Below, piece after piece: positions 8,435-22,004 of a stretch of DNA of 64,000 bases (the first letter of the stretch is position 1; every line of letters begins with the position of its first letter). The DNA lies in the NCBI RefSeq assembly GCF_006542355.1, contig NZ_CP038141.1, positions 1,243,501 through 1,307,500 on the forward strand. The letters are read 5' to 3'. A program made the translations under genes and the position numbers. Under the pieces are notes generated by a model that ran no database searches, was not told the origin of the DNA, and worked only from the letters and a program-made list of their open reading frames with translations. The stretch comes from Swingsia samuiensis. GTDB lineage: Bacteria; Pseudomonadota; Alphaproteobacteria; Acetobacterales; Acetobacteraceae.

Positions 8435-8791
8435 TTATTGATATTGAGATAAAATTTGTTTCAACACAGCTTCATTGCTTGGTTTTTCAAGAAAGCTAGC
8501 GTTAGGGTATTGTTCTTTTAGCTTATGATCTGTTTTATTACCTGAGTGGAATATAATAGGGACACCTTCATCCCGTAGTTTGTTGGCAATAGTAAAGATA
8601 TTTCCGTCTGCTAATTGGATATCAAGTATAGCGCAGGCGAGGGTACTCAGAGAAAGATGAGAGAGTGCTCTTTCGGTATCGATCAATGATCCATATGGCC
8701 CATTGATCGATAACCCTACTTCTTCAACCGTCATCTGAAGGTCAAGCGCAACGATCAATTCATCTTCAACGAGGAGAACTGTTTTATTCAT
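8435..8791 (-). CDS. Single-domain response regulator of the LOV/HWE locus
   Basis: 118 residues consisting of a receiver domain only. Acidic residues are Glu9/Asp10 (LVEDE), the phospho-acceptor is Asp57 (ILDIQL), the conserved Ser is in FHSG and the Lys is Lys103 (EKP). There is no output domain, so it probably passes phosphate on, acts as a phosphate sink or works by protein contact. Its ATG overlaps the end of the upstream HWE-kinase gene by eight bases, which makes that kinase its likely partner. Receivers of this FHSG type commonly pair with HWE kinases. Confidence 0.88.
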   Translation of the reverse strand: MNKTVLLVEDELIVALDLQMTVEEVGLSINGPYGSLIDTERALSHLSLSTLACAILDIQLADGNIFTIANKLRDEGVPIIFHSGNKTDHKLKEQYPNASFLEKPSNEAVLKQILSQYQ

Positions 8792-11700
8792 TCGAAAAAC
8801 ACATTCTAGGTAAAGTTATTTTCATCTCAAATCTTAAAGGTGTAGTATGCCGTTCTATGGTTGCTTTAAGTTGTCGTAAAGCTGTTTGTTCAAGCTGCTC
8901 GCCGAAACCTGAAGATCCCGTAAACGTGATCTCATTTTTTTTCTGTTCTTTCCAGTAAATAATGAGATTATCATGCTGTTCTCGCCAAGAAATATGAAGT
9001 GTCCCTTCACTGTTAATATTGAGAGCGCCGTATTTTACGGAGTTGGTTGCCCATTCGTGTAGCAAGAGAGCTAAGGGCGAGAGGTTTTTATAGTTGATCA
9101 GGACAGGGGGGCCAAAAATTTTGATGTTGTTGTCATGTTGATAAGGCGCCAACGTGTCTTTGATCAGATGTTGAATATTTGTGCCCTTATCAAAGCCGTT
9201 TTGTGCCGCGCAAGAATGGGCAATTCCTAAGGCGACGATACGTGTTCTCATGTCTTTAGCAAAAACACGGACATTATTATGACGATGAGCTGCGATAGAG
9301 ATCATACTACTGATAACAGCGAATAAGTTTTTAACACGATGGTTCATTTCACGAACCATCAGTTCACGCGTTTCGACAACTTCGTGTTCAGGGGTTACGT
9401 CGATGGAGACGCCAATGAGAGTAGGCGGCGAGCTATTGGCGATAAAATGCCCACTTGCACGAACCCAGCGTGTTTCACCGTTGCTTTGATGAACACTGAA
9501 GTTAATATCAAAAGGCTCTCCACTTTCTAAAGCATTATCAAATGTCTGGGTAATAATGGAGCGCTCTTGTGAACTAATCCAGGCGTGTGACTCTGAGTGG
9601 AAGGTTGAGATGTCCACAAGTGTTTGGTTGCCAACATCAAGAACAGTTTTTTTCTTCTGAGGTGAATATTCCCATACCCCGATGCGTGCAGCTCGAATGG
9701 CGAGCTCAAGTCTTTCACGTTCTGATGCTAATTGTCTTTCTAAATAAAGGGCATCTGTAATATCTGTGAAAACTAAGGTTGCTCCATTAATACTTTCTCC
9801 TTGTGTGCGATACGGCATAATACGCAAAGAATAGATGTGCTTTTTATTAATGCCAATGACACGCTTACTAATGACTTCGCCATTTTTTGTGACATTGATA
9901 GTATCTTGCAAATAATCATTTAGTTCAATTTGGCCAGATACATCCGCAAAAGGCCGCCCCTTATCACCCGGTTTAAGTGGGAATAGGAAAGTGGCTGCTT
10001 CTGTGTAGTTACGAATACAGAGGTTTTCGTCAACGACGACGACCGCTGCATTTGTAGAATCGAAAAAGTTTTTAAGGTCTGAGTTGGCAACAGTTAGCTG
10101 AGTGATTTTTGTTTTTAACTCGTCATTGACAGTCGACAGTTCTTCATTGGCAGATTGAAGTTCTTCATTCATCGACATCATTTCTTCATTGGAACTCTTT
10201 AGCTCTTCATTGGCTGTTTCAAGTTCTTCAATGGTGAGACGAAGCCTGTGGCGCATTAAGCGCAGTTCATCTTCTAAGATTTCAACATGGTTATTGTTGG
10301 TTTGAAATTCTTCAATGTCTTGGTTGCTAATCGGTTTTGCAGGGCTTTTATTTTGGAAGACAAGAAGAAAAGCATCTTCCCCAAGAGGGTCGCAAATGAC
10401 ATCCGTCTTTTGAGATGTAAACTCGCTGAGAACGTCAACATCTCGGATGATTGTTCGTTTAAGGGCTTGTTGTGTTTGCCTTAAAAGCTGTCCAATGACC
10501 CCTCGTAAACCGGGGCGGGCTAGTGTAAAAATACTGGAACCTCCCGTGCGGGTTACAGGGAAGTCAAAATAAATTCCAAGCTTACCAAAAGCGGAAATAA
10601 TTTCTCCATCTTTGTTAACGACGAGGCTTGGAGGAGTATATAATTCCAGTAAGCGCTGGCTGGCAGCCGTATCGCTTTGAATTTTTCGGTCGCTATTAAA
10701 CAGCTCTGAAGGACGCGTGGTTGGATTGGCATATTGCTGAGTAGGTAAAGCTATTGGGTGACTGGTGCCACCGTGTAGCTTTTCAAAAATTCGGGCCTGT
10801 TGATGTGCAACACTGAAAAACCCTTCAAAGCGACCGATACTATCGGATGGCCCCAAGAAGAGGTATCCATTCGGCCGAACAGCATAGTGTAGGATAGGAA
10901 CAATAGCTTTTTGTAAGTTTTCCTCAAAATAAATGAGCAAATTACGGCAAGAAAGAAGATCGACTTTAGAAAAAGGCGGGTCTTTTAAAAGGCTATGATT
11001 GGAAAACCGAACCATATTACGCACATGATTACTAATTTTGAAGCGATCTGCGACAGGGACGGTATAGCGCTCACGTAAATGTTCTGGAATATCAATAAGA
11101 GCGGCATTGGGATAAGTTGCTGCACGGGCAATGCTTAACATTTGCTCATCAATATCAGAGGCAAATATTTGTACATTGTGTGAGCATTCATGGATACGTA
11201 GCGCTTCGGCAAAGAGGATTGCTATACTATAGGCTTCTTCACCACTGGAACACCCCGCAACCCAGACGCGAATATCATCATGTAAGCCGCGATTAAGAAC
11301 AAGGGGTTCTATAACTTTTAGTCTTAGTTGTTCAAAAGCATCTGTATCGCGAAAGAATTTGGTGACGTTAATCAGAAGGTCTCGAAAGAGAGCTTGCGCT
11401 TCGGAATGGTCTTTTTGCATCCGAAGAAGATATTCATGTGGGGAGTCTATACCGACAACATGCATGCGTCGTGCAATGCGCCGGATTAGGGTGGAGTGTT
11501 TATAACCTGAAAAATCATGACCCACGACCATGCGGAGTTCACGACAGACAGCATCTAGATTATTGGCTAAAACATCAGAATCTGCATCGGTAAAACGTAG
11601 AGTTCGTCGGTCAAGGAAGTCTTTCAGGCAAGCAAAAATTTCTTCGGGAGGTTTAACAAAATCAACCAACCCTGTACCAACGGCGGAGAGGGGCATACCG

Positions 11701-12185
11701 TCATACCGGGCGGTATCTGGTTGTTGGACGATACAAACACCACCATTTTCTTTGATGGCTCGAACGCCTGTTGTTCCATCTGCACCTGTTCCCGAAAGAA
11801 TAACACAGGCTGCATTACTTTGCTGGTCATTGGCAAGAGAAACAAAGAAATCGTCAATGGGTCGTCTTAAGCCACGAGGGCGCGTAAAGTCAGTCAGTTT
11901 AAGAATACTATTTTGTATTTTCAGACCATGTCCGGGTGGAATAATATAAACATGATCAGCTTGTAGGAGCTCGCCTCCTTCACTTTGTAAAACAGTGAGT
12001 TCGGTATAACGTTCTAACAGCTGAGCTAAGAGACTATTATGATGAGGGTCAAGGTGTTGTACGACCACAAAAGCCATTTTTGTGGGCTTTTTGATAGAAG
12101 ACAGCATAAGGCGCAAAGCTTCTAAGCCTCCAGCTGAAGCGCCTACACCTACAACAAGAGGAAGGTTATTTTGAATAGTGTTCAT
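8784..12185 (-). CDS. CheB/CheR/PAS/HWE hybrid sensor kinase
   Basis: 1133 residues. CheB-like methylesterase at 8-185 with the triad Ser17 (GASAGG), His44 and Asp136. CheR-like methyltransferase at about 205-470 with the SAM loop VAGCSSGEEAYS. A PAS-like region near 505-620, a coiled coil rich in NEEL repeats (635-705), PAS domains at about 705-815 and 825-935, then an HWE kinase with phospho-acceptor His949 in MNHRVKN, N box HEWATNSVKYG and the WxE motif Trp1078-Lys-Glu1080. All catalytic residues look intact. It is soluble and lies between a LOV-domain gene and a receiver gene in one operon; no chemoreceptor or other che genes are nearby. Its substrate for methylation is unknown. Confidence 0.92.
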   Translation of the reverse strand: MNTIQNNLPLVVGVGASAGGLEALRLMLSSIKKPTKMAFVVVQHLDPHHNSLLAQLLERYTELTVLQSEGGELLQADHVYIIPPGHGLKIQNSILKLTDFTRPRGLRRPIDDFFVSLANDQQSNAACVILSGTGADGTTGVRAIKENGGVCIVQQPDTARYDGMPLSAVGTGLVDFVKPPEEIFACLKDFLDRRTLRFTDADSDVLANNLDAVCRELRMVVGHDFSGYKHSTLIRRIARRMHVVGIDSPHEYLLRMQKDHSEAQALFRDLLINVTKFFRDTDAFEQLRLKVIEPLVLNRGLHDDIRVWVAGCSSGEEAYSIAILFAEALRIHECSHNVQIFASDIDEQMLSIARAATYPNAALIDIPEHLRERYTVPVADRFKISNHVRNMVRFSNHSLLKDPPFSKVDLLSCRNLLIYFEENLQKAIVPILHYAVRPNGYLFLGPSDSIGRFEGFFSVAHQQARIFEKLHGGTSHPIALPTQQYANPTTRPSELFNSDRKIQSDTAASQRLLELYTPPSLVVNKDGEIISAFGKLGIYFDFPVTRTGGSSIFTLARPGLRGVIGQLLRQTQQALKRTIIRDVDVLSEFTSQKTDVICDPLGEDAFLLVFQNKSPAKPISNQDIEEFQTNNNHVEILEDELRLMRHRLRLTIEELETANEELKSSNEEMMSMNEELQSANEELSTVNDELKTKITQLTVANSDLKNFFDSTNAAVVVVDENLCIRNYTEAATFLFPLKPGDKGRPFADVSGQIELNDYLQDTINVTKNGEVISKRVIGINKKHIYSLRIMPYRTQGESINGATLVFTDITDALYLERQLASERERLELAIRAARIGVWEYSPQKKKTVLDVGNQTLVDISTFHSESHAWISSQERSIITQTFDNALESGEPFDINFSVHQSNGETRWVRASGHFIANSSPPTLIGVSIDVTPEHEVVETRELMVREMNHRVKNLFAVISSMISIAAHRHNNVRVFAKDMRTRIVALGIAHSCAAQNGFDKGTNIQHLIKDTLAPYQHDNNIKIFGPPVLINYKNLSPLALLLHEWATNSVKYGALNINSEGTLHISWREQHDNLIIYWKEQKKNEITFTGSSGFGEQLEQTALRQLKATIERHTTPLRFEMKITLPRMCFSNE

Positions 12186-12196
12186 TGAAATAACCT

Positions 12197-12766
12197 TTAA
12201 AAAGAGTTCATATTTTTTTCAAGATCATCAAGTAGAAGCTTCGCTTGGGCAATTGATTTAGAAGTATTTGCAATTGCGATTAATGATCCTTCTGACATAA
12301 TATTACTTTCAGATAGAATTGGATTAATATCACGGAGTGTTTGTCTTAATTCATTGTTATAATCGTCTAACAAATGAGATTGAGAGTTACTAATTTCAAA
12401 TTGAGAAGCAAAAATAAACTTTAGCTCTCCGCTCGAAGAGGTTAGCTTTGACATGAATAATAAGTTGATAAAGGGTGTTTTATCTTTTCTATAATTTACG
12501 AGAGAGGTTCTAATATTGTTAATCTCTGGGGTGCTTAAAAACTCGTGAATGGCTTGTCTTGATTTTGTATTATGCTCATGTGAGGCAGAACCTTGAAGAA
12601 GACGGCAGTTAACGCCTATGAGTTCTTGAGAGGAGTATTGAGTTAAAAGCTCGAATTTTTTGTTGATAAAAACTAAAGGGTGGTCGTTTTGAGCGTGAGC
12701 GACAGAAAGAGCAATGTTGGCATTCATGCAGTATTGTTTTAAATGCTGGGGAATGTCAGAGGTCAT
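12197..12766 (-). CDS. Short LOV-domain blue-light photoreceptor
   Basis: 189 residues from the ATG at 12766; an in-frame TTG at 12817 would add 17 residues with no support. The LOV core spans about 10-120. It has the flavin-adduct motif NCRLLQG with the photoactive Cys54, a NYRKD segment followed by FINLL that supplies the two flavin-binding Asn residues, and the Gln in FASQFEIS that senses the adduct. About 65 C-terminal residues are helical and have no output domain. LOV proteins bind FMN and form a cysteinyl adduct under blue light. The stop is 11 bases before the HWE-kinase gene, so signalling through that kinase is inferred. Confidence 0.88.
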   Translation of the reverse strand: MTSDIPQHLKQYCMNANIALSVAHAQNDHPLVFINKKFELLTQYSSQELIGVNCRLLQGSASHEHNTKSRQAIHEFLSTPEINNIRTSLVNYRKDKTPFINLLFMSKLTSSSGELKFIFASQFEISNSQSHLLDDYNNELRQTLRDINPILSESNIMSEGSLIAIANTSKSIAQAKLLLDDLEKNMNSF

Positions 12767-12968
12767 GCGGGGCTCAAATGTGAAGGTGAGATAATATTTT
12801 AAGAATAAATAAAACAAATTGAATATACGGTAAAGTATTTTTTAAAAATATTTAAGGCTATAGAGCTTCAAAGTTAGTAAAAATAGAATATTTTACTATT
12901 TAAAAAAGGTATTACATAAATATTTATAATTTAAATGAAAAGTAGTTTTGTTTCTATTTTTTGTTTTT

Positions 12969-12992
12969 GAGTGCTAAATTGCTTTAGCACTC
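12969..12992. repeat. Perfect 10-bp inverted repeat after ansP
   Basis: GAGTGCTAAA (12969-12978), a 4-base loop and TTTAGCACTC (12983-12992) form a strong hairpin 10 bases beyond the ansP stop codon. On the minus strand it is followed by A-rich rather than T-rich sequence, so it is not a canonical terminator for ansP, but it could protect the 3' end of the message. The remainder of 12767-13002 is A+T rich and should hold the promoter of the LOV operon. Confidence 0.5.
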
Positions 12993-13002
12993 ATTAATAG
13001 AT

Positions 13003-15809: not shown

Positions 15810-16280
15810 GTGGTGGAGACAAAGATAGAAGAGGGAGAAGAGCCTAAAAAAGGTAACAAAAAACGCTCCCTTATTTTTTTGATAGCGGCTTTGTGTGTGT
15901 TGGCAGCAGGAGGTGGAGCTTGGAAGCATTTTTATCACTCCGTGTCTTCAGCAAAAACTAAAACTCTGGTGGATGAACAGAAGAAAGTCATTGTTATACC
16001 TGCAGTGATGTCAAATTTGGATTCAAGCGATGGATATACGCACTATGTGAGAGTTAGTGCGCGTTTGTTGGTTCCGGAGAGAATAAATACAGCAGACGTT
16101 GAGGCGTATATGCCACAGATACAGGATTTATTTCAGATGTATTTGCATAGCACTCGTTTGCAAGAGCTCTCTGGGGAAGGGATATATCGCTTGCGAGAGA
16201 GTATGCTTCAACAAATTCAAAATACGCTTGCGCCTATACCTGTTGAGGATTTGTTTTTTGTGGAAGTTATCGTCCAATGA
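15810..16280 (+). CDS. fliL: Flagellar basal body-associated protein FliL
   Basis: 156 residues starting at GTG 15810, preceded by AAGGGG at 15798-15803. A charged cytoplasmic N-terminus (1-22) is followed by one membrane segment (about 23-41) and a periplasmic FliL domain ending in DLFFVEVIVQ. FliL surrounds the stator units and supports motor torque. It is the first gene of a flagellar operon and overlaps fliM by four bases (ATGA). Its start is only about a dozen bases from that of the divergent transglycosylase. Confidence 0.88.
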   Translation: MVETKIEEGEEPKKGNKKRSLIFLIAALCVLAAGGGAWKHFYHSVSSAKTKTLVDEQKKVIVIPAVMSNLDSSDGYTHYVRVSARLLVPERINTADVEAYMPQIQDLFQMYLHSTRLQELSGEGIYRLRESMLQQIQNTLAPIPVEDLFFVEVIVQ

Positions 16281-17269
16281 CATCTACGAAACTTCATGAA
16301 AATAATACTGATGATGCAAACAAAATGTCCGAATTATTACAGCCCGAGAAAAAATTTAATGTTTTAGAGACGCGTAAAAATTTAACTCAACAGAAAAAAA
16401 TTGAAAAACTGATTGGAACAGCGCCAACTTCATATGAGCGCTTACCGATGTTGGAAGTTGTTTTTGATCGGTTTGTAAGGAGATTAACAACGACTTTAAG
16501 AAACCGAATTACTGATAGTGTTGTAATCTCTATTAGAGAAATATTCTCTCAACGATGGGAGGAATACTTACAAAACGATGCAAAAAAATCATTATACGTA
16601 GTATTCAAAGCGGATGAGTGGAATGGTTCTGGCGTCTTAGTTTTGGAGTCTAAGCTATTTTATAGTCTTATTGATTCTTTATTAGGCGGTAGAAAGGAGA
16701 AAAATGCCTTCTTGTCGAATAGAGATCATTATACGGAAATAGAAAAAGCTTTAATTAAACCAATTTTACATGAAATATTAACAAGCTTTGCAGAGAGTTT
16801 TTACCCTCTGTGTAAGGTTGATTTTGCCTTTGAGCGATTGGAAACGAACACACGTTTTGTCGCTGTTTCTCGACCGATGGATGGGGTTGTAAGGCTATCG
16901 TTTAATATTCAGATTGAAGAAAATATAGGGAAAGCAGATTTTATTTTGCCATATGCAATGTTGGAGCCCATACGAGATACTTTATTACAGCAGTATATGG
17001 GAGAGAAACTTGGACATGATACCGTGTGGGAAAATCATTTAGTTCAGGAGTTGTGGAAAACCCATATTAATATTGATGTTGTTCTTGGTGAGCAAGAAAT
17101 AGATTTTAATAAAATTACTAATTTCTCTCCAGGAGATAAGATTTTTTTACGGAGACTAAGTGAAAACTTTGTTTCAGTTCGGTCTGGAGGGAAAGATTTA
17201 TTTACAGCAAAAATGGGCCAAAGGCGCGGAGGGGTAGCAATATCAATAGAAAATTCATTTATAGAATAA
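16277..17269 (+). CDS. fliM: Flagellar motor switch protein FliM
   Basis: 330 residues, the usual FliM length. The middle CheC-like domain spans about 60-240 (with LIDSLLGGR), and the C-terminal SpoA/FliN-type domain lies at about 255-325. FliM forms the cytoplasmic C-ring and binds CheY-P to switch rotation. The N-terminal CheY-binding segment is divergent: MSELL is present but the usual LSQDEIDALL motif is not. From here to 20557 the DNA is clearly A+T rich, with many Lys, Asn and Ile codons. Confidence 0.9.
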   Translation: MTSTKLHENNTDDANKMSELLQPEKKFNVLETRKNLTQQKKIEKLIGTAPTSYERLPMLEVVFDRFVRRLTTTLRNRITDSVVISIREIFSQRWEEYLQNDAKKSLYVVFKADEWNGSGVLVLESKLFYSLIDSLLGGRKEKNAFLSNRDHYTEIEKALIKPILHEILTSFAESFYPLCKVDFAFERLETNTRFVAVSRPMDGVVRLSFNIQIEENIGKADFILPYAMLEPIRDTLLQQYMGEKLGHDTVWENHLVQELWKTHINIDVVLGEQEIDFNKITNFSPGDKIFLRRLSENFVSVRSGGKDLFTAKMGQRRGGVAISIENSFIE

Positions 17270-17284
17270 GGGTGGATTATTATA

Positions 17285-17743
17285 ATGGAAAAAATACAAA
17301 TAGCCCTAGAAATATTTCTGAGTGTTATTTTGATAATAACATTGTTTTATGGGTTAACCGTTCGGAAGGCACTCTTCTTTTTAAAAAAAGATAAGAGAAA
17401 CTTTGATGCAATGATTGCAAAATTAGAAAATAATTTGGATAATATTCATCATAATATCAATAATATAAAGAAGACATCTAATGAACTGGAAGTAAAATTA
17501 TTAAAATCAATAAATGAGGGATTTTTCTTGAAAGAAGAGTTAGAGAAAATTTATAAAAAATCAGAAAAATTTATGTTGAATAGTAATATAATTTCATCTG
17601 AAGGAAATATAAATTTAAGGAAAAACACCCGTCTATCAAATGACGATGATGATATAAATAGAAAAAAATTTTCATTTGTTAATCAAGGAAAAAGCCAAGC
17701 AGAAAAGCAGCTGATTGAAGCGCTTCGCCGAAAGAAAGTATAA
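17285..17743 (+). CDS. DUF6468-like membrane protein of the flagellar operon
   Basis: 152 residues with one N-terminal membrane segment (about 8-28), then a coiled coil-like region rich in Lys, Asn and Glu (30-105) and a basic tail (QLIEALRRKKV). Position directly after fliM and before a MotE-like gene, together with this layout, matches the DUF6468 proteins of alphaproteobacterial flagellar clusters. Its precise role is not established; an accessory role at the motor is inferred from context. Confidence 0.7.
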   Translation: MEKIQIALEIFLSVILIITLFYGLTVRKALFFLKKDKRNFDAMIAKLENNLDNIHHNINNIKKTSNELEVKLLKSINEGFFLKEELEKIYKKSEKFMLNSNIISSEGNINLRKNTRLSNDDDDINRKKFSFVNQGKSQAEKQLIEALRRKKV

Positions 17744-17746
17744 AAA

Positions 17747-18400
17747 ATGCTGTATAGAATCATTGGGGTTTTTTGTGTTTTTTGTTGCTTATTGATTGGA
17801 GTAAATGCTTTTAATTTAATTGGTTTTATTTATGATGGTGAGAGTATTACCTCCGTTTCTTATGCATCGCCAAGTGATGATTTTAATAAAAGTCAATCGT
17901 CAAAAAATATAAATCCAATAGAAAAGAAGCAAGTGAAAAACATTTGTGATCAAGGAGGTTGTAATAACGACCACCCCTTTCAAAAAGAGATTAGAAAATT
18001 TAATAGTGAGACGAAAATTTCTTATGATTTGGATAAAAAGCAAAATGAATTAAATAAAAAAGAAGAAATATTGAATAACAAAGAGAATATTTTGAATATG
18101 ACTCAAAAAGAAATTCAAATTCAAATGAACGATTTAGAAAAAATAAAAAATAATTTTGCAAAACAAGAAGATAATGCTGATAAAATATTAGAGAATGACT
18201 CAGATAAACTAGTGAAGATATATGAAGCTATGCGTCCAGGAGACGCAGCATTAATTTTTAATGTCTTGGATTTGCGGATAGGAGTTAGGTTGTTAAGCCA
18301 AATGTCACCGCGTAAGTCTTCTGCAATCATGGCGCTAATGTCACCAGAAAGAGTGGTTTTAATAACCCAGCTTCTTTCTAAAATACATTCGCACATATAG
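17747..18400 (+). CDS. MotE-like flagellar stator chaperone
   Basis: 217 residues. A membrane segment or signal anchor at about 5-27, a long coiled coil (about 95-145, repeated KKEEILNNKENIL-like heptads) and a C-terminal MgtE_N-like helical domain (150-215, YEAMRPGDAALIFNVLD and MSPRKSSAIMALMSPE). In rhizobia MotE is a periplasmic chaperone for the stator-associated protein MotC. It follows the DUF6468-like gene by three bases. Assigned by architecture and position. Confidence 0.75.
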   Translation: MLYRIIGVFCVFCCLLIGVNAFNLIGFIYDGESITSVSYASPSDDFNKSQSSKNINPIEKKQVKNICDQGGCNNDHPFQKEIRKFNSETKISYDLDKKQNELNKKEEILNNKENILNMTQKEIQIQMNDLEKIKNNFAKQEDNADKILENDSDKLVKIYEAMRPGDAALIFNVLDLRIGVRLLSQMSPRKSSAIMALMSPERVVLITQLLSKIHSHI

Positions 18401-18421
18401 TCTTTTTAGAAAGAGCAAGTA

Positions 18422-20557
18422 ATGAAAAGGCTAGTAATTGGAATATATATATCTTTATTTATGTCTCCTGCTTATGCCGGCGATATAAAGAGTGTGGCCA
18501 ATGTATTGCCCCAAGGTTGGATGATTTTGAATCAGAGTAAAGTATCTTTAAAGCAAACAGTTAATGGCCAAGATAATACACTTTCAAAAGGTTTAACTGT
18601 AAATCATGATACTCCAACGGTTACCGGATTTTTGATACCTCTACAAAAAGAAACACCATTAGCTGCTTATGTGCGTGGGCAAGAACTTATTATTTTTCTA
18701 GATGGCAATATATTTTTAGATGAGAAAGAAATTAAAAAATTAATTTCTTCGTATGGATTTTCATTTAAAGTCGTAAATAACACAACAATTGTTATAATGA
18801 AAATTCCAGACCAAAAAAAAGTAAGTCTTGAATATATAGGAGGTGGTTTAGAAATATTATTTTCTCCTAATCTAGGAAATACAAAAGAATTTAAGATTGA
18901 TGTTTTGAAAGAAAAAATCAGTTTTTCCACTGTGATTTGGAGGGGGGGTGAAAAAGTTATATCGCTCCCAGATCCCATAACAGGAAGACGTCTTTTATTA
19001 GGTTTATCTTATGAAGGGAAGGTTGTTCGAGGCATTAATCAACCTCTGTTAGGATTTAATGTATGGCCTAGTTTGAGGGGAGTAGTTGTCTCAAGCGATA
19101 CAGATAAAGCAGATTTAAGTTTGGGACAAAATAGTTTTGTTTTTAAAATAAACAATTTAAAACATGGAGATGTAACACCTAATTCGTTTTTAAAGAGTTT
19201 GGGGGAAGAAGACCGTCAAAATATAAAAGCAAAAGCTTATCAAGACTGGATTAAAGTTATAGGTGCGACGTTAGGGCAGAAATTAAATGCTCGATTGAAT
19301 TTAGCTCAAGTTGTAGCGCAAATGGCGAATGCTCCTTTATTGGTGAGTCTTTTAAAAACGGCAATCAATGATGAGCCAGAGAGTACTTCGCGGTTAGACG
19401 TGCAATATCTACAGAAAATAGCAAATGTTTTAAGTAGGAAAATAATTTTTCCAGAAGACCCTAATTTTTTTACTAATTCATCGAGTATTCAACTTTGGGT
19501 TGATATGGAGAAAGCTATTGTAGCTGAGGGTGCTGGGGATGAAAATAATAGGCAAAAAAAAGAAATTGCTCATGCGTTAGCTAAAAATATTCAGGAAATT
19601 AATCGTTATTCAGATTCTATAAAGAGAAATATTGTACCCTTTTTAGCGCGTTGGATTGCGCAGTACGGGGATGCAGAAGATGTTAAAAACTTATCTCAGT
19701 TGCCGCCATATCAGTCTGCCCTTCTTTTTAAGAGTATGACTGGCGATAACCGTAAAGAGATTAAAGATAATATACATAAACTCACTTATAGTAATTCGCC
19801 TGTAATATGGCCGATTGCTCGGGAAGAAGAATTGCGGATGAATTTAAAAGAGGGAAAAATATCGGGGGAAGAAGTTGTTGATAAATTAAATAAAATCACT
19901 CCAGCACTAAGAATTGCAGGAGAAGAGGAAAGAGCTGATATTTTAAAAATCGATGCTCTAATAAAAGATAAAGATTTTAGCGGAGCACTACAAAATACGT
20001 TAGAAGGGCAAAGTTTGTTTCATGATAAGTATTTTCCAAGTAAGGATCGATTATTAAGTGTATGTAACGGTATGGAAAAAGAGTTATTAAAGAGCAGTCA
20101 AAAGGTTATACTTGAAATCGATAATTTAAAACAATTATTGTCGCAGACTGCGGTTACGGATGAATGGCGAGAGAATATATTGAAAGCTTTGACGGCAAGG
20201 TATGATTTTTTGGGAATGGATCAGGAGAAAGAGGAAGTTAATCAACAGCTACAGCCGCTTCATCAGGATAATGATATAAAGCCGATAGACAATGAATTAT
20301 TAGAGAATAAATTGAATAAAAATAATATTGATTATAATTTTGAAAAGCAGCTGTTATTAGAGAAAATACATAAGATAATGCTTTCTTCCAATAAAGAATT
20401 ATCTCCTGAAGAAGAGGATTTAGTATTAAAATATACAGCATCCGTTCTGAAAAATGAGGATAAAAGTGAATTGGCAGAATTAAGTAAACTGAGTGATAGA
20501 TTTTCTTCGTCTTCTTCTAGAGATTTATTTGTATTTTTAACACATAAGCAAAAATAG
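18422..20557 (+). CDS. Large exported protein of the flagellar operon, unknown function
   Basis: 711 residues. A signal peptide (about 1-19, ending AYA) predicts export. Residues 20-230 look beta-rich, and 265-700 are mostly helical, possibly repeat-forming, and strongly charged. No enzyme motif is recognised. It is the last gene of the fliL-fliM-DUF6468-MotE series, and large exported proteins with TPR-like helices are found at this place in other alphaproteobacteria, so a role in the motor or stator is plausible but unproven. Codon use is strongly A+T biased. The TAG stop lies inside a 14-bp tandem duplication. Confidence 0.7.
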   Translation: MKRLVIGIYISLFMSPAYAGDIKSVANVLPQGWMILNQSKVSLKQTVNGQDNTLSKGLTVNHDTPTVTGFLIPLQKETPLAAYVRGQELIIFLDGNIFLDEKEIKKLISSYGFSFKVVNNTTIVIMKIPDQKKVSLEYIGGGLEILFSPNLGNTKEFKIDVLKEKISFSTVIWRGGEKVISLPDPITGRRLLLGLSYEGKVVRGINQPLLGFNVWPSLRGVVVSSDTDKADLSLGQNSFVFKINNLKHGDVTPNSFLKSLGEEDRQNIKAKAYQDWIKVIGATLGQKLNARLNLAQVVAQMANAPLLVSLLKTAINDEPESTSRLDVQYLQKIANVLSRKIIFPEDPNFFTNSSSIQLWVDMEKAIVAEGAGDENNRQKKEIAHALAKNIQEINRYSDSIKRNIVPFLARWIAQYGDAEDVKNLSQLPPYQSALLFKSMTGDNRKEIKDNIHKLTYSNSPVIWPIAREEELRMNLKEGKISGEEVVDKLNKITPALRIAGEEERADILKIDALIKDKDFSGALQNTLEGQSLFHDKYFPSKDRLLSVCNGMEKELLKSSQKVILEIDNLKQLLSQTAVTDEWRENILKALTARYDFLGMDQEKEEVNQQLQPLHQDNDIKPIDNELLENKLNKNNIDYNFEKQLLLEKIHKIMLSSNKELSPEEEDLVLKYTASVLKNEDKSELAELSKLSDRFSSSSSRDLFVFLTHKQK

Positions 20558-20582
20558 GAAGTATAATATAGGAAGTATAATA
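20555..20582. repeat. 14-bp exact tandem duplication at a stop codon
   Basis: TAGGAAGTATAATA occurs twice in direct succession (20555-20568 and 20569-20582). The first copy contains the TAG stop of the preceding gene. It looks like a replication-slippage duplication. The rest of 20583-20801 is A+T rich with no gene seen; a TTGACG at about 20727-20732 is a possible -35 element for the RND operon, but no good -10 follows. Confidence 0.85.
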
Positions 20583-20801
20583 TTGGTCATATAAAAATAT
20601 AGGAAAGTGCTTTTAATCATATGAGGATAATAAATCCTATAACATTTAAACGATTTGTAAATGTATATTTATTGTGAGTATATTTCTTGTTGGTTGAGTT
20701 TGCATAGGAGCAATCTATTTCTTGAATTGACGGAGAGGGTAAAAAACGGTTAACTTCGACGATCAAGAAAATGTGAATTCCAACCGAGGATAGGCGCGTT
20801 T

Positions 20802-22004
20802 ATGCCCTTTTTCCAAAGAAAAATACTAGATTTTGTAGAGGATGGGGCAAAAAAGAGCCGCTCTTTGGATGTTATGAAAAGGAGTGCTGTGCTCGGGGCT
20901 CTCCCTATCGTTTTATTAGGCTGCCATAAAAAAGTAGAAACCCCTAAGCCTCAGCCACAACCTGTTGATATTATTACATTACATACTCAAGCTGTTGGTT
21001 TAGAGACATCCTTGCCAGGGCGAATTGAAGCCTATGAGCAAGCGCAGATTAGGCCTCAAGTAAGCGGCGTAATTGTTTCTCGTGATTTTGAACAAGGAGC
21101 CGATGTTAAAGCAGGTCAGCAGCTTTACCAGATTTATATAGCCCCTTATCAAGCAGCTTACGATCAGGCGAAGGCACAATTAATGAATGCCCAAGCATCT
21201 GCTGTACGCGCAAGAGCCCAATTAAGACGCTATGGTCCTCTCGTTAAGGCGCATGCTGTTAGTTCTCAGGACTATGACAATACGTTAGCAGCGGCTCGAC
21301 AAGCTGATGCACAGGTTGCTCAAGCAAAAGCAAGCGTTGAAGCGGCGACGGTTAATCTGAATTATACACATGTGCGCGCTCCTATTTCGGGGCGAATTGG
21401 TCGGACTTTATACACGGCCGGTGCATTGGTAACAGCTAATCAAACGCAGCCTGTTGCAGTCGTAACGCGTTTGGACCCTGTGTATGTAGACGTAAATTTA
21501 GCGGCTTCTGACATGCTGAGATTAAAGCGTGAATTAGCGAGCGGTCAGATCGAAAGAAAGGGTACAGATGCTGCCGCAGTTGGTTTGCGTCTGGAAGATA
21601 ACTCTGAATACCCTCAGTATGGAAAGTTAGAACTCTCTGAGGTGACTGTTGATCCGTCTACAGGAACATTGGTCATTCGTGCTGTTTTCGAAAACCCTGA
21701 TCATATTTTGCTACCGGGTATGTTTGTTCATGCCTATGTCCGTGAGGGTATTGACCCCAAGGGTATTTTAGTACCGCAAGAGGCCGTTCAAAGAGACTTC
21801 AAAGGGGCTCCCTTTGTGATGGTGATGGATAACGATCATAAAGTTCATCAACGTTCTATAGAAACAGTACGGACGATTGATTCCTCATGGCTTGTTAATA
21901 AAGGCGTACAAGCTGGAGAGAAGATTGTTGTGAACGGGCTACAGAAAATCTTGCCAGGTGCGGAAGTCTCTCCACGAGAAGTTTCTTCTGGGAAAGCAGA
22001 GTAA
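20802..22004 (+). CDS. RND efflux periplasmic adaptor lipoprotein
   Basis: 400 residues, AcrA/MexA family. The lipobox LLGC lies about 40 residues from the ATG at 20802, which has GAGGATAGG upstream; an internal ATG at 20874 gives a more usual lipoprotein signal (MKRSAVLGALPIVLLGC). The biotinyl-lipoyl domain, alpha-helical hairpin (about 110-165) and beta-barrel follow in order (YTHVRAPISGRIGR is typical). It links the inner-membrane pump to the outer-membrane channel. First gene of an operon with the pump five bases downstream. Confidence 0.92.
   Translation: MPFFQRKILDFVEDGAKKSRSLDVMKRSAVLGALPIVLLGCHKKVETPKPQPQPVDIITLHTQAVGLETSLPGRIEAYEQAQIRPQVSGVIVSRDFEQGADVKAGQQLYQIYIAPYQAAYDQAKAQLMNAQASAVRARAQLRRYGPLVKAHAVSSQDYDNTLAAARQADAQVAQAKASVEAATVNLNYTHVRAPISGRIGRTLYTAGALVTANQTQPVAVVTRLDPVYVDVNLAASDMLRLKRELASGQIERKGTDAAAVGLRLEDNSEYPQYGKLELSEVTVDPSTGTLVIRAVFENPDHILLPGMFVHAYVREGIDPKGILVPQEAVQRDFKGAPFVMVMDNDHKVHQRSIETVRTIDSSWLVNKGVQAGEKIVVNGLQKILPGAEVSPREVSSGKAE

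Follow-up and report, generated by a model that had tools for sequence, protein, structure and literature searches.

A separate short LOV protein beside a CheB-CheR-coil-PAS-HWE kinase and a lone receiver: a putative blue-light signaling module in Swingsia samuiensis and other Alphaproteobacteria

A putative operon for light signaling in three genes

A stretch of 64,000 nucleotides from the genome of Swingsia samuiensis (2.19 Mb, 2 contigs; contig NZ_CP038141.1, positions 1,243,501 to 1,307,500), referred to as the window, contains on its minus strand the genes for a short LOV protein, for a large kinase joining CheB, CheR, PAS and HWE histidine kinase domains in one chain, and for a lone receiver (Table 1). 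The initial annotation of this DNA had described them as tightly packed, and the coordinates of the open reading frames (ORFs) bear this out, with an 11-base gap between the LOV and kinase ORFs and an 8-base overlap between the kinase and receiver ORFs. Judged by sequence comparison, the three genes appear to represent a conserved, patchily spread light-signaling module, and we consider it likely that the LOV protein controls the adjacent kinase by light, which would make the operon a self-contained blue-light two-component module.

The only Pfam match in the LOV protein is PAS_9, and a fused effector domain is not present. The motif NCRLLQG with Cys54 and the asparagine and glutamine residues of the flavin-binding type, to which the initial annotation had pointed, are indeed there: Asn53, Cys54, Arg55, Gln58, Arg86, Asn91, Asn101 and Gln122 are identical in all 49 sequences of the set used for residue conservation (the window, loci L038–L040 and 45 full-length loci from named records). 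The cysteine and the flavin-contacting residues are also invariant in a deeper branch of the Sphingomonadaceae (alignment of 53 sequences). The roles of these residues, like those of the CheB, CheR, HWE and receiver residues below, are the ones which we take to hold for the respective protein families, and from them we infer that the LOV protein binds flavin. Its predicted structure (mean predicted local distance difference test score, pLDDT, 90.7) consists of the LOV core followed by just two helices (residues 130–152 and 168–186). The twelve best fold matches in the PDB (Foldseek) are all chains of RsLOV from Rhodobacter sphaeroides, aligned over 181–192 columns with template modeling (TM) scores of 0.66–0.75. 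By this nearly whole-chain match, which includes the C-terminal helices at a moderate TM score of about 0.7, the protein resembles a short LOV protein of the RsLOV type. At one related locus (L102, 7001–7540) the LOV frame stops after 125 residues while the similarity continues, which indicates a frame break or a sequencing error in the C-terminal helices.

The Pfam matches of the kinase are CheB, CheR_N, CheR, PAS_10, PAS_3 and HWE_HK, the last with 55.7 bits versus a cut-off of 22.8; the MCPsignal domain is not among them. This confirms the intact CheB, CheR and HWE kinase modules that had been noted in the second gene, to which two PAS domains and a long coil can now be added. The eight CheR residues that were checked are conserved in all 48 readable sequences, and His949 as well as the N-box, W-x-E and G-box residues of the HWE domain are kept in 46 of 46; three loci at contig ends (L103, L107 and L111) were left out of the HWE counts and of the kinase tree. 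As the predicted structure of the C-terminal part of the kinase has a mean pLDDT of 73.9 and a predicted TM score of 0.41, only the order of the elements was taken from this model.

The third gene had been read as a receiver, and this assignment stands. The match to Response_reg (25.8 bits) lies under the cut-off of 30.2, yet E9, D10, E11, D57, S83 and K103 are in place and are kept in all 46 sequences. FATGUY receivers are defined by the motif PFxFATG(G/Y) (PMC5964349; this and the other papers given by accession are cited from a part of their text). The receiver exhibits P-x-x-F-H-S-G-H at this position in 38 of 46 sequences and close variants in the rest, which rules it out as a canonical FATGUY receiver.

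Table 1. Genes, domains and single codons of the operon, in coordinates of the window.
Feature	Position	Strand	Basis and remarks
Short LOV gene	12197..12766	-	ORF from ATG, 189 amino acids; LOV core and C-terminal two-helix extension
Presumed photoactive Cys54, codon	12605..12607	-	Sequence (GVNCRLLQ); Cys in 49/49
Kinase gene	8784..12185	-	ORF, 1133 amino acids; CheB, CheR, PAS-like region, coil, PAS_10, PAS_3, HWE histidine kinase
CheB methylesterase domain, residues 12-185	11631..12152	-	Pfam; Ser17, His44, Asp136 in 49/49
CheR N-terminal and S-adenosylmethionine-binding domains, residues 210-463	10797..11558	-	Pfam
Coil, residues 653-691	10113..10229	-	Six acidic pairs, EE or DE, one exactly every 7 residues; candidate methyl-accepting helix
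PAS_10 domain, residues 704-810	9756..10076	-	Pfam
Second PAS domain, about residues 825-935	9381..9713	-	Pfam PAS_3 at 872-926; candidate LOV docking site
HWE kinase, residues 946-1127	8805..9350	-	Presumed phospho-acceptor His949 (MNHRVKN), HEWATN N-box, W-K-E, G-box
Lone receiver gene	8435..8791	-	ORF, 118 amino acids; presumed phospho-acceptor Asp57, codon 8621-8623

Linkage of the LOV and kinase genes across genomes

In a draw of 299 genomes of the Acetobacteraceae, 106 included some LOV match (threshold E 1e-8), and only eight of them a match across nearly all 189 residues. Nearly full-length kinase matches, for which two candidates per genome were scored, were also found in eight of the 299 genomes, and these are the identical eight; the other kinase matches listed stop at residue 938 or earlier. 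The order LOV-kinase-receiver is the same in all eight modules, in four kinds of surroundings, and the LOV protein and the kinase are separate ORFs throughout, unlike the LovK-type fusions in one chain. Within the genus, five of 26 genomes contain the full-length LOV gene. The module is, overall, rare and patchily distributed.

Patterns built from eight close LOV proteins yielded 424 relatives in named records, of which 80 loci were used. Nearly the whole LOV protein is matched in 45 of these (L073–L117; L104, L108, L109 and L113 had already been counted in the genome draws), while L118–L152 match a part of it and were kept outside the neighbor counts. The kinase adjoins the LOV gene in all 45 loci, and the receiver follows in 42, the remaining three being contig ends. 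The genera include Sphingomonas, Novosphingobium, Sphingobium, Sphingomicrobium, Cereibacter, Rhodobacter, Paracoccus, Falsirhodobacter, Agrobacterium, Mesorhizobium, Aureimonas and Neokomagataea, among others. Several strain names hint at leaves or flowers, and the pairing of LOV and kinase is found in many plant- and water-living bacteria. The arrangement had been called unusual for an apparent acetic acid bacterium. It is not confined to this group and occurs, though rarely overall, in the Acetobacterales, Hyphomicrobiales, Rhodobacterales and Sphingomonadales (the order was checked for one genus each). One record named Bacillus sp. 2B10 (L114) carries a Sphingomonas-like module and is probably contaminated or misnamed.

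Among plasmids, the 13 records containing at least 80% of the LOV protein are also the 13 best records for the kinase, at adjacent coordinates, with kinase identities of 44–56% versus 33% or less in the next record listed. Two annotated examples of the module have their genes labeled as PAS domain protein, CheR or CheB protein and response regulator.

The pairing was also approached from the side of the kinase, in 298 genomes of the Sphingomonadaceae, the family of Sphingomonas phyllosphaerae (L092, included). At E 1e-250 or better the kinase is present in 19 of them, and 17 of these have a LOV gene within 1 kb upstream, which is immediately adjacent in 13 and separated by one intervening gene in four (L190–L193). 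This gene is the same in all four, 74–96% identical where compared, and the copy of genome G844 matches Pfam HTH_Crp_2. A Crp-type regulator between LOV and kinase in this one branch (L190–L193; L208, 8347–9116) might be a possible output there. The receiver is co-directional in five of the 19 loci, convergent in ten and not found within the 1.5 kb examined in four. As the LOV gene is present in 17 loci and a co-directional receiver in five, the LOV-kinase pair is tighter than the position of the receiver. A fourth conserved gene was not found among ORFs of at least 100 amino acids common to at least three of 23 loci, apart from ABC ATPases; the other neighbor clusters of this comparison are, by their coordinates, alternative frames of the same genes, or ABC ATPases. 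The initial annotation had made its reading depend on conservation of the LOV gene beside the kinase in relatives, and precisely this is found, in all eight family modules, all 45 named loci, all 13 plasmid records and 17 of the 19 Sphingomonadaceae with the kinase.

Six further kinases with CheB, CheR, PAS_10 and HWE domains in one chain (L051, L053, L054, L056, L058 and L066) have no LOV gene in their 1.5-kb flanks, and two of them (L053 and L058) have a receiver-like match nearby. They differ from the LOV-linked kinases in that the HWE domain comes straight after PAS_10 without a second PAS domain: the stretch between residues 812 and 940 comprises 128–134 residues in 46 LOV-linked kinases versus 6–7 in four unlinked ones. 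The second PAS domain is, by this comparison, a reasonable candidate docking site for the LOV protein. At G287:C96:2463-6592, a different LOV-bearing ORF (824 amino acids) is found some 1.7 kb upstream of a CheB-CheR kinase of the unlinked kind and on its strand, perhaps a second light pairing.

Tree distances of LOV and kinase correlate with r 0.93 across 60 taxa, as is expected of one operon. In the kinase tree, the window kinase is sister to that of Neokomagataea (support 1.0), and the kinases of H6797 and of genus g100 group with Sphingomonas; the tree also shows the L190 kinase, which was excluded from the conservation and distance counts. As three lineages of Acetobacteraceae stand apart in this tree, two of them near Sphingomonas, and as the module is found on plasmids, larger-scale transfer appears likely, and plasmids may have carried the module across orders, between which it has probably spread. 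A recent horizontal gain in S. samuiensis itself was considered in view of the kinase being only about 55% identical to those of same-genus genomes. This was rejected, as PhoR is just as divergent (54–57% to 25 other genomes of the genus) and the kinase is sister to that of Neokomagataea. In H6797, two more ORFs similar to the end of the kinase lie upstream of the module (L035, 1801–7166).

Proposed light pathway, adaptation and alternatives

As an RsLOV-type short LOV protein, the first gene product would bind flavin and form an adduct at Cys54 in blue light. The adjacent HWE kinase may then sense in trans, most likely via its second PAS domain, a light-dependent change in the dimerization or the C-terminal helices of the LOV protein, and its autophosphorylation at His949 would be altered, as the linkage suggests. 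The phosphoryl group would move to Asp57 of the lone receiver, which, like LovR in its pairing with LovK, could serve the general stress response as a relay or as a sink. The least certain step is the role of CheR and CheB: these domains would adjust the kinase of which they are part, with reversible methylation of its acidic heptad coil as the most likely means, and so provide adaptation to steady light.

The general stress response is favored, by analogy, as the endpoint of the signal because the genome contains a PhyR match above the cut-off, because the nearest solved relatives of the receiver are mainly PhyR-type proteins, and because of two precedents: LovK-LovR act as phosphate sink on the stress-response hub in Caulobacter (PMC5964349), and HWE/HisKA2 kinases coordinate the general stress response in Alphaproteobacteria (PMC12148442). 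Beside the PhyR match are a NepR-like ORF, two ORFs resembling extracytoplasmic function sigma factors (named by eye) and another HWE-matching kinase; HWE matches in the genome number three in all.

The initial annotation had suggested that a separate LOV protein works through the CheB/CheR/HWE kinase. The conserved linkage speaks in part for this idea, and light control of the kinase is likely. Several points weigh against it. Gene linkage alone does not prove contact between LOV protein and kinase, and the module is rare: in an even draw of 385 genomes across the class, only S. samuiensis contained the full-length LOV gene. The search patterns made from eight LOV proteins favor close relatives, and the LOV model shares only 21–23% identity with RsLOV at a root-mean-square deviation of 4.1–4.9 Å. 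Genome G923 (L204/L206) has no LOV match at E 1e-8 although it carries a receiver and a kinase of the LOV clade, and this kinase retains the second PAS domain; in G730 the kinase frame is broken, no LOV gene adjoins it and the only LOV match lies elsewhere in the genome. As neither genome has an adjacent LOV gene, the kinase can exist without one, and as ten of the 19 Sphingomonadaceae receivers are convergent and four loci have none within 1.5 kb, a co-transcribed receiver is not universal. Alternatively, the LOV protein might act elsewhere, for example on a transcription regulator, and the operon might only co-express it with an independent stress kinase. In line with this, PmSB-LOV has a MerR-type regulator as its target (PMC9758184), four of the 19 Sphingomonadaceae loci carry a gene for a Crp-type regulator in between LOV and kinase, and G923 has the kinase without LOV. 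Yet several data sets, with otherwise different flanks, show the pairing whenever one starts from the LOV gene and, with few exceptions, also when one starts from the kinase, which makes such separate action improbable. The LOV-less kinase of G923 might reflect a loss or another input.

The step of adaptation depends on the coil. Its acidic pairs, at residues 653, 660, 667, 674, 681 and 688, lie within a long helix of the predicted model. The coil was compared in 61 clade kinases (60 and the LOV-less L204; the L190 kinase was excluded, as it has a stop in the coordinates used). The most conserved 39-residue segment of the kinase, a size that was chosen after the coil had been noticed, starts at residue 653 with a mean majority fraction of 0.983; the best segment elsewhere reaches 0.887, and CheB, CheR and the HWE DHp domain average 0.81, 0.76 and 0.66, respectively. 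The first five pairs are EE in all 61 kinases and the sixth is DE in 60, and the third position after the pair is Ser or Thr in all 61 for pairs 1–5 and in at least 39 for the sixth. The longest run of exact heptads, with Gln and Asp accepted, is 6 or 7 in all 61 versus at most 3 in shuffles (300 for each of eight proteins), which are a weak control for a coiled coil, no other acidic coil having been compared. The four unlinked kinases compared have a like coil with exactly 14 residues more, that is two heptads. In chemoreceptors, the number of heptads sets the class (PMC2577667). Acidic pairs exactly seven residues apart are like chemoreceptor methylation sites. The downstream half of the chemoreceptor methylation consensus fits fully at three pairs (EELETA, EELKSS, and EELQSA or EELQST at pairs 1, 2 and 4) and by half at the others, and the upstream half is incomplete. 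When plasmids were searched with the coil only (BLAST low-complexity filter on), the matches came from the 13 records already named and lay in each case inside the kinase match; this search is uninformative on whether the coil is exclusive to these kinases.

From these features it is tentatively proposed that the kinase is a one-chain receptor-kinase whose own CheR methylates, and whose own CheB demethylates, the heptad coil within one and the same dimer. A blue-light signal received in trans could then register as change and adapt in steady light without any chemoreceptor. The coil may, with about equal chances of being right or wrong, merely be a highly conserved signaling helix, with CheR and CheB acting on some other substrate or serving a structural function. 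In favor of such a helix, sensor and kinase domains are commonly joined by long coils, and the fit to the chemoreceptor consensus is partial: three of the six pairs are followed by both small residues and the other three by one, and not every kinase has the sixth pair. It would, however, have to account for a coil conserved at 0.98 where the enzymatic domains reach 0.66–0.81, for six or seven exact-heptad pairs where shuffles give at most three, and for a length difference of exactly two heptads. That CheR and CheB instead act on separate chemoreceptors, the protein linking light to chemotaxis, appears very unlikely. In its favor, methyl-accepting chemotaxis proteins (MCPs) are present in 31 of 36 carriers of the module that were surveyed, 28 of them from the set of 45 named loci and eight others; as G720, G722 and G724 are identical to G011, G054 and G180, this amounts to 28 of 33 distinct genomes. 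Moreover, the flagellar genes FliL and FliM are about 3 kb away from the operon, an addition to the initial annotation, which had rightly seen no chemoreceptors nearby. This absence extends to the whole genome of S. samuiensis, which was scanned and contains no match to PF00015 (MCPsignal), CheA and CheW not being searched; seven of 14 control genomes matched. No MCP match was obtained either in five of the carriers surveyed (G157, G200, Cereibacter flavus, Paracoccus shanxieyensis and Falsirhodobacter). Because of this, chemoreceptors cannot be the substrate of CheR and CheB in these six carriers, yet the checked CheB and CheR residues are unchanged there, and no chemotaxis gene is a shared neighbor among the 23 loci. 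If the coil is methylated, a soluble histidine kinase with an easily switched light input would share the adaptation chemistry known from chemoreceptors, which would render the module a useful optogenetic part as well, and the LOV-unlinked kinases would represent one and the same device, driven by other inputs.

The combination of a separate short LOV protein, a CheB-CheR-coil-PAS-PAS-HWE kinase and a receiver is a variant that joins known kinds and is undescribed within the open literature searched; these searches, which found no description of the LOV-kinase-receiver module, were not aimed at self-methylation of a coil. In LovK, the LOV domain is fused to the kinase, and sensory rhodopsin-Htr complexes are membrane complexes that feed a separate kinase. 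LovK-LovR of Caulobacter share with the present operon a blue-light kinase of such kind and a lone receiver in one operon (PMC5964349), but here the LOV protein is separate and the kinase has CheB, CheR and the coil. As in sensory rhodopsin-Htr complexes, a separate photoreceptor would be bound to a methyl-accepting transducer (PMC6798134); the difference would be, if the self-methylation reading holds, that kinase, CheR and CheB are in one chain. A short LOV protein acting in trans on the product of the adjacent gene is known from PmSB-LOV/PmlR2 of Pseudomonas mendocina, where the partner is a MerR-family repressor and not a kinase (PMC9758184). RsLOV (PDB 4hj3, 7ob0), a dimer in the dark and a monomer in blue light (PMC9614035), likewise consists of a LOV core and C-terminal helices. 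For RsLOV, DsLOV and the short LOV proteins of P. putida, the part of PMC9758184 cited here states that no binding partners had been found, RsLOV's still being given as not known in 2022, and it introduces PmlR2 as the first to be identified for a bacterial short LOV protein. According to an analysis quoted in PMC8508746, about 14% of 496 bacterial LOV domains belonged to short LOV proteins. The tightly linked kinase is a likely partner for this orphan class of light sensors, and the question of the partner becomes directly testable.

Surroundings of the operon

Convergent to the operon are genes for PhoU, a PhoB-like regulator and a PhoR-like kinase (Pfam, window), and upstream of it lies an amino acid permease gene, followed by FliL (15810-16280) and FliM (16277-17269). 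Scans for sigma-70-type promoters (13 sites versus 11.4 ± 3.4 expected) and for terminators (6 sites versus 4.3 ± 1.9 expected) gave about as many sites as shuffled sequences and were not used. Across window positions 16000-21000, which comprise FliM and several ORFs without a Pfam match (for example 18422-20557, 711 amino acids), the G+C content drops to about 0.30–0.37; in the first 30 kb of the window, an equally low value is found elsewhere only at 12001-13000.

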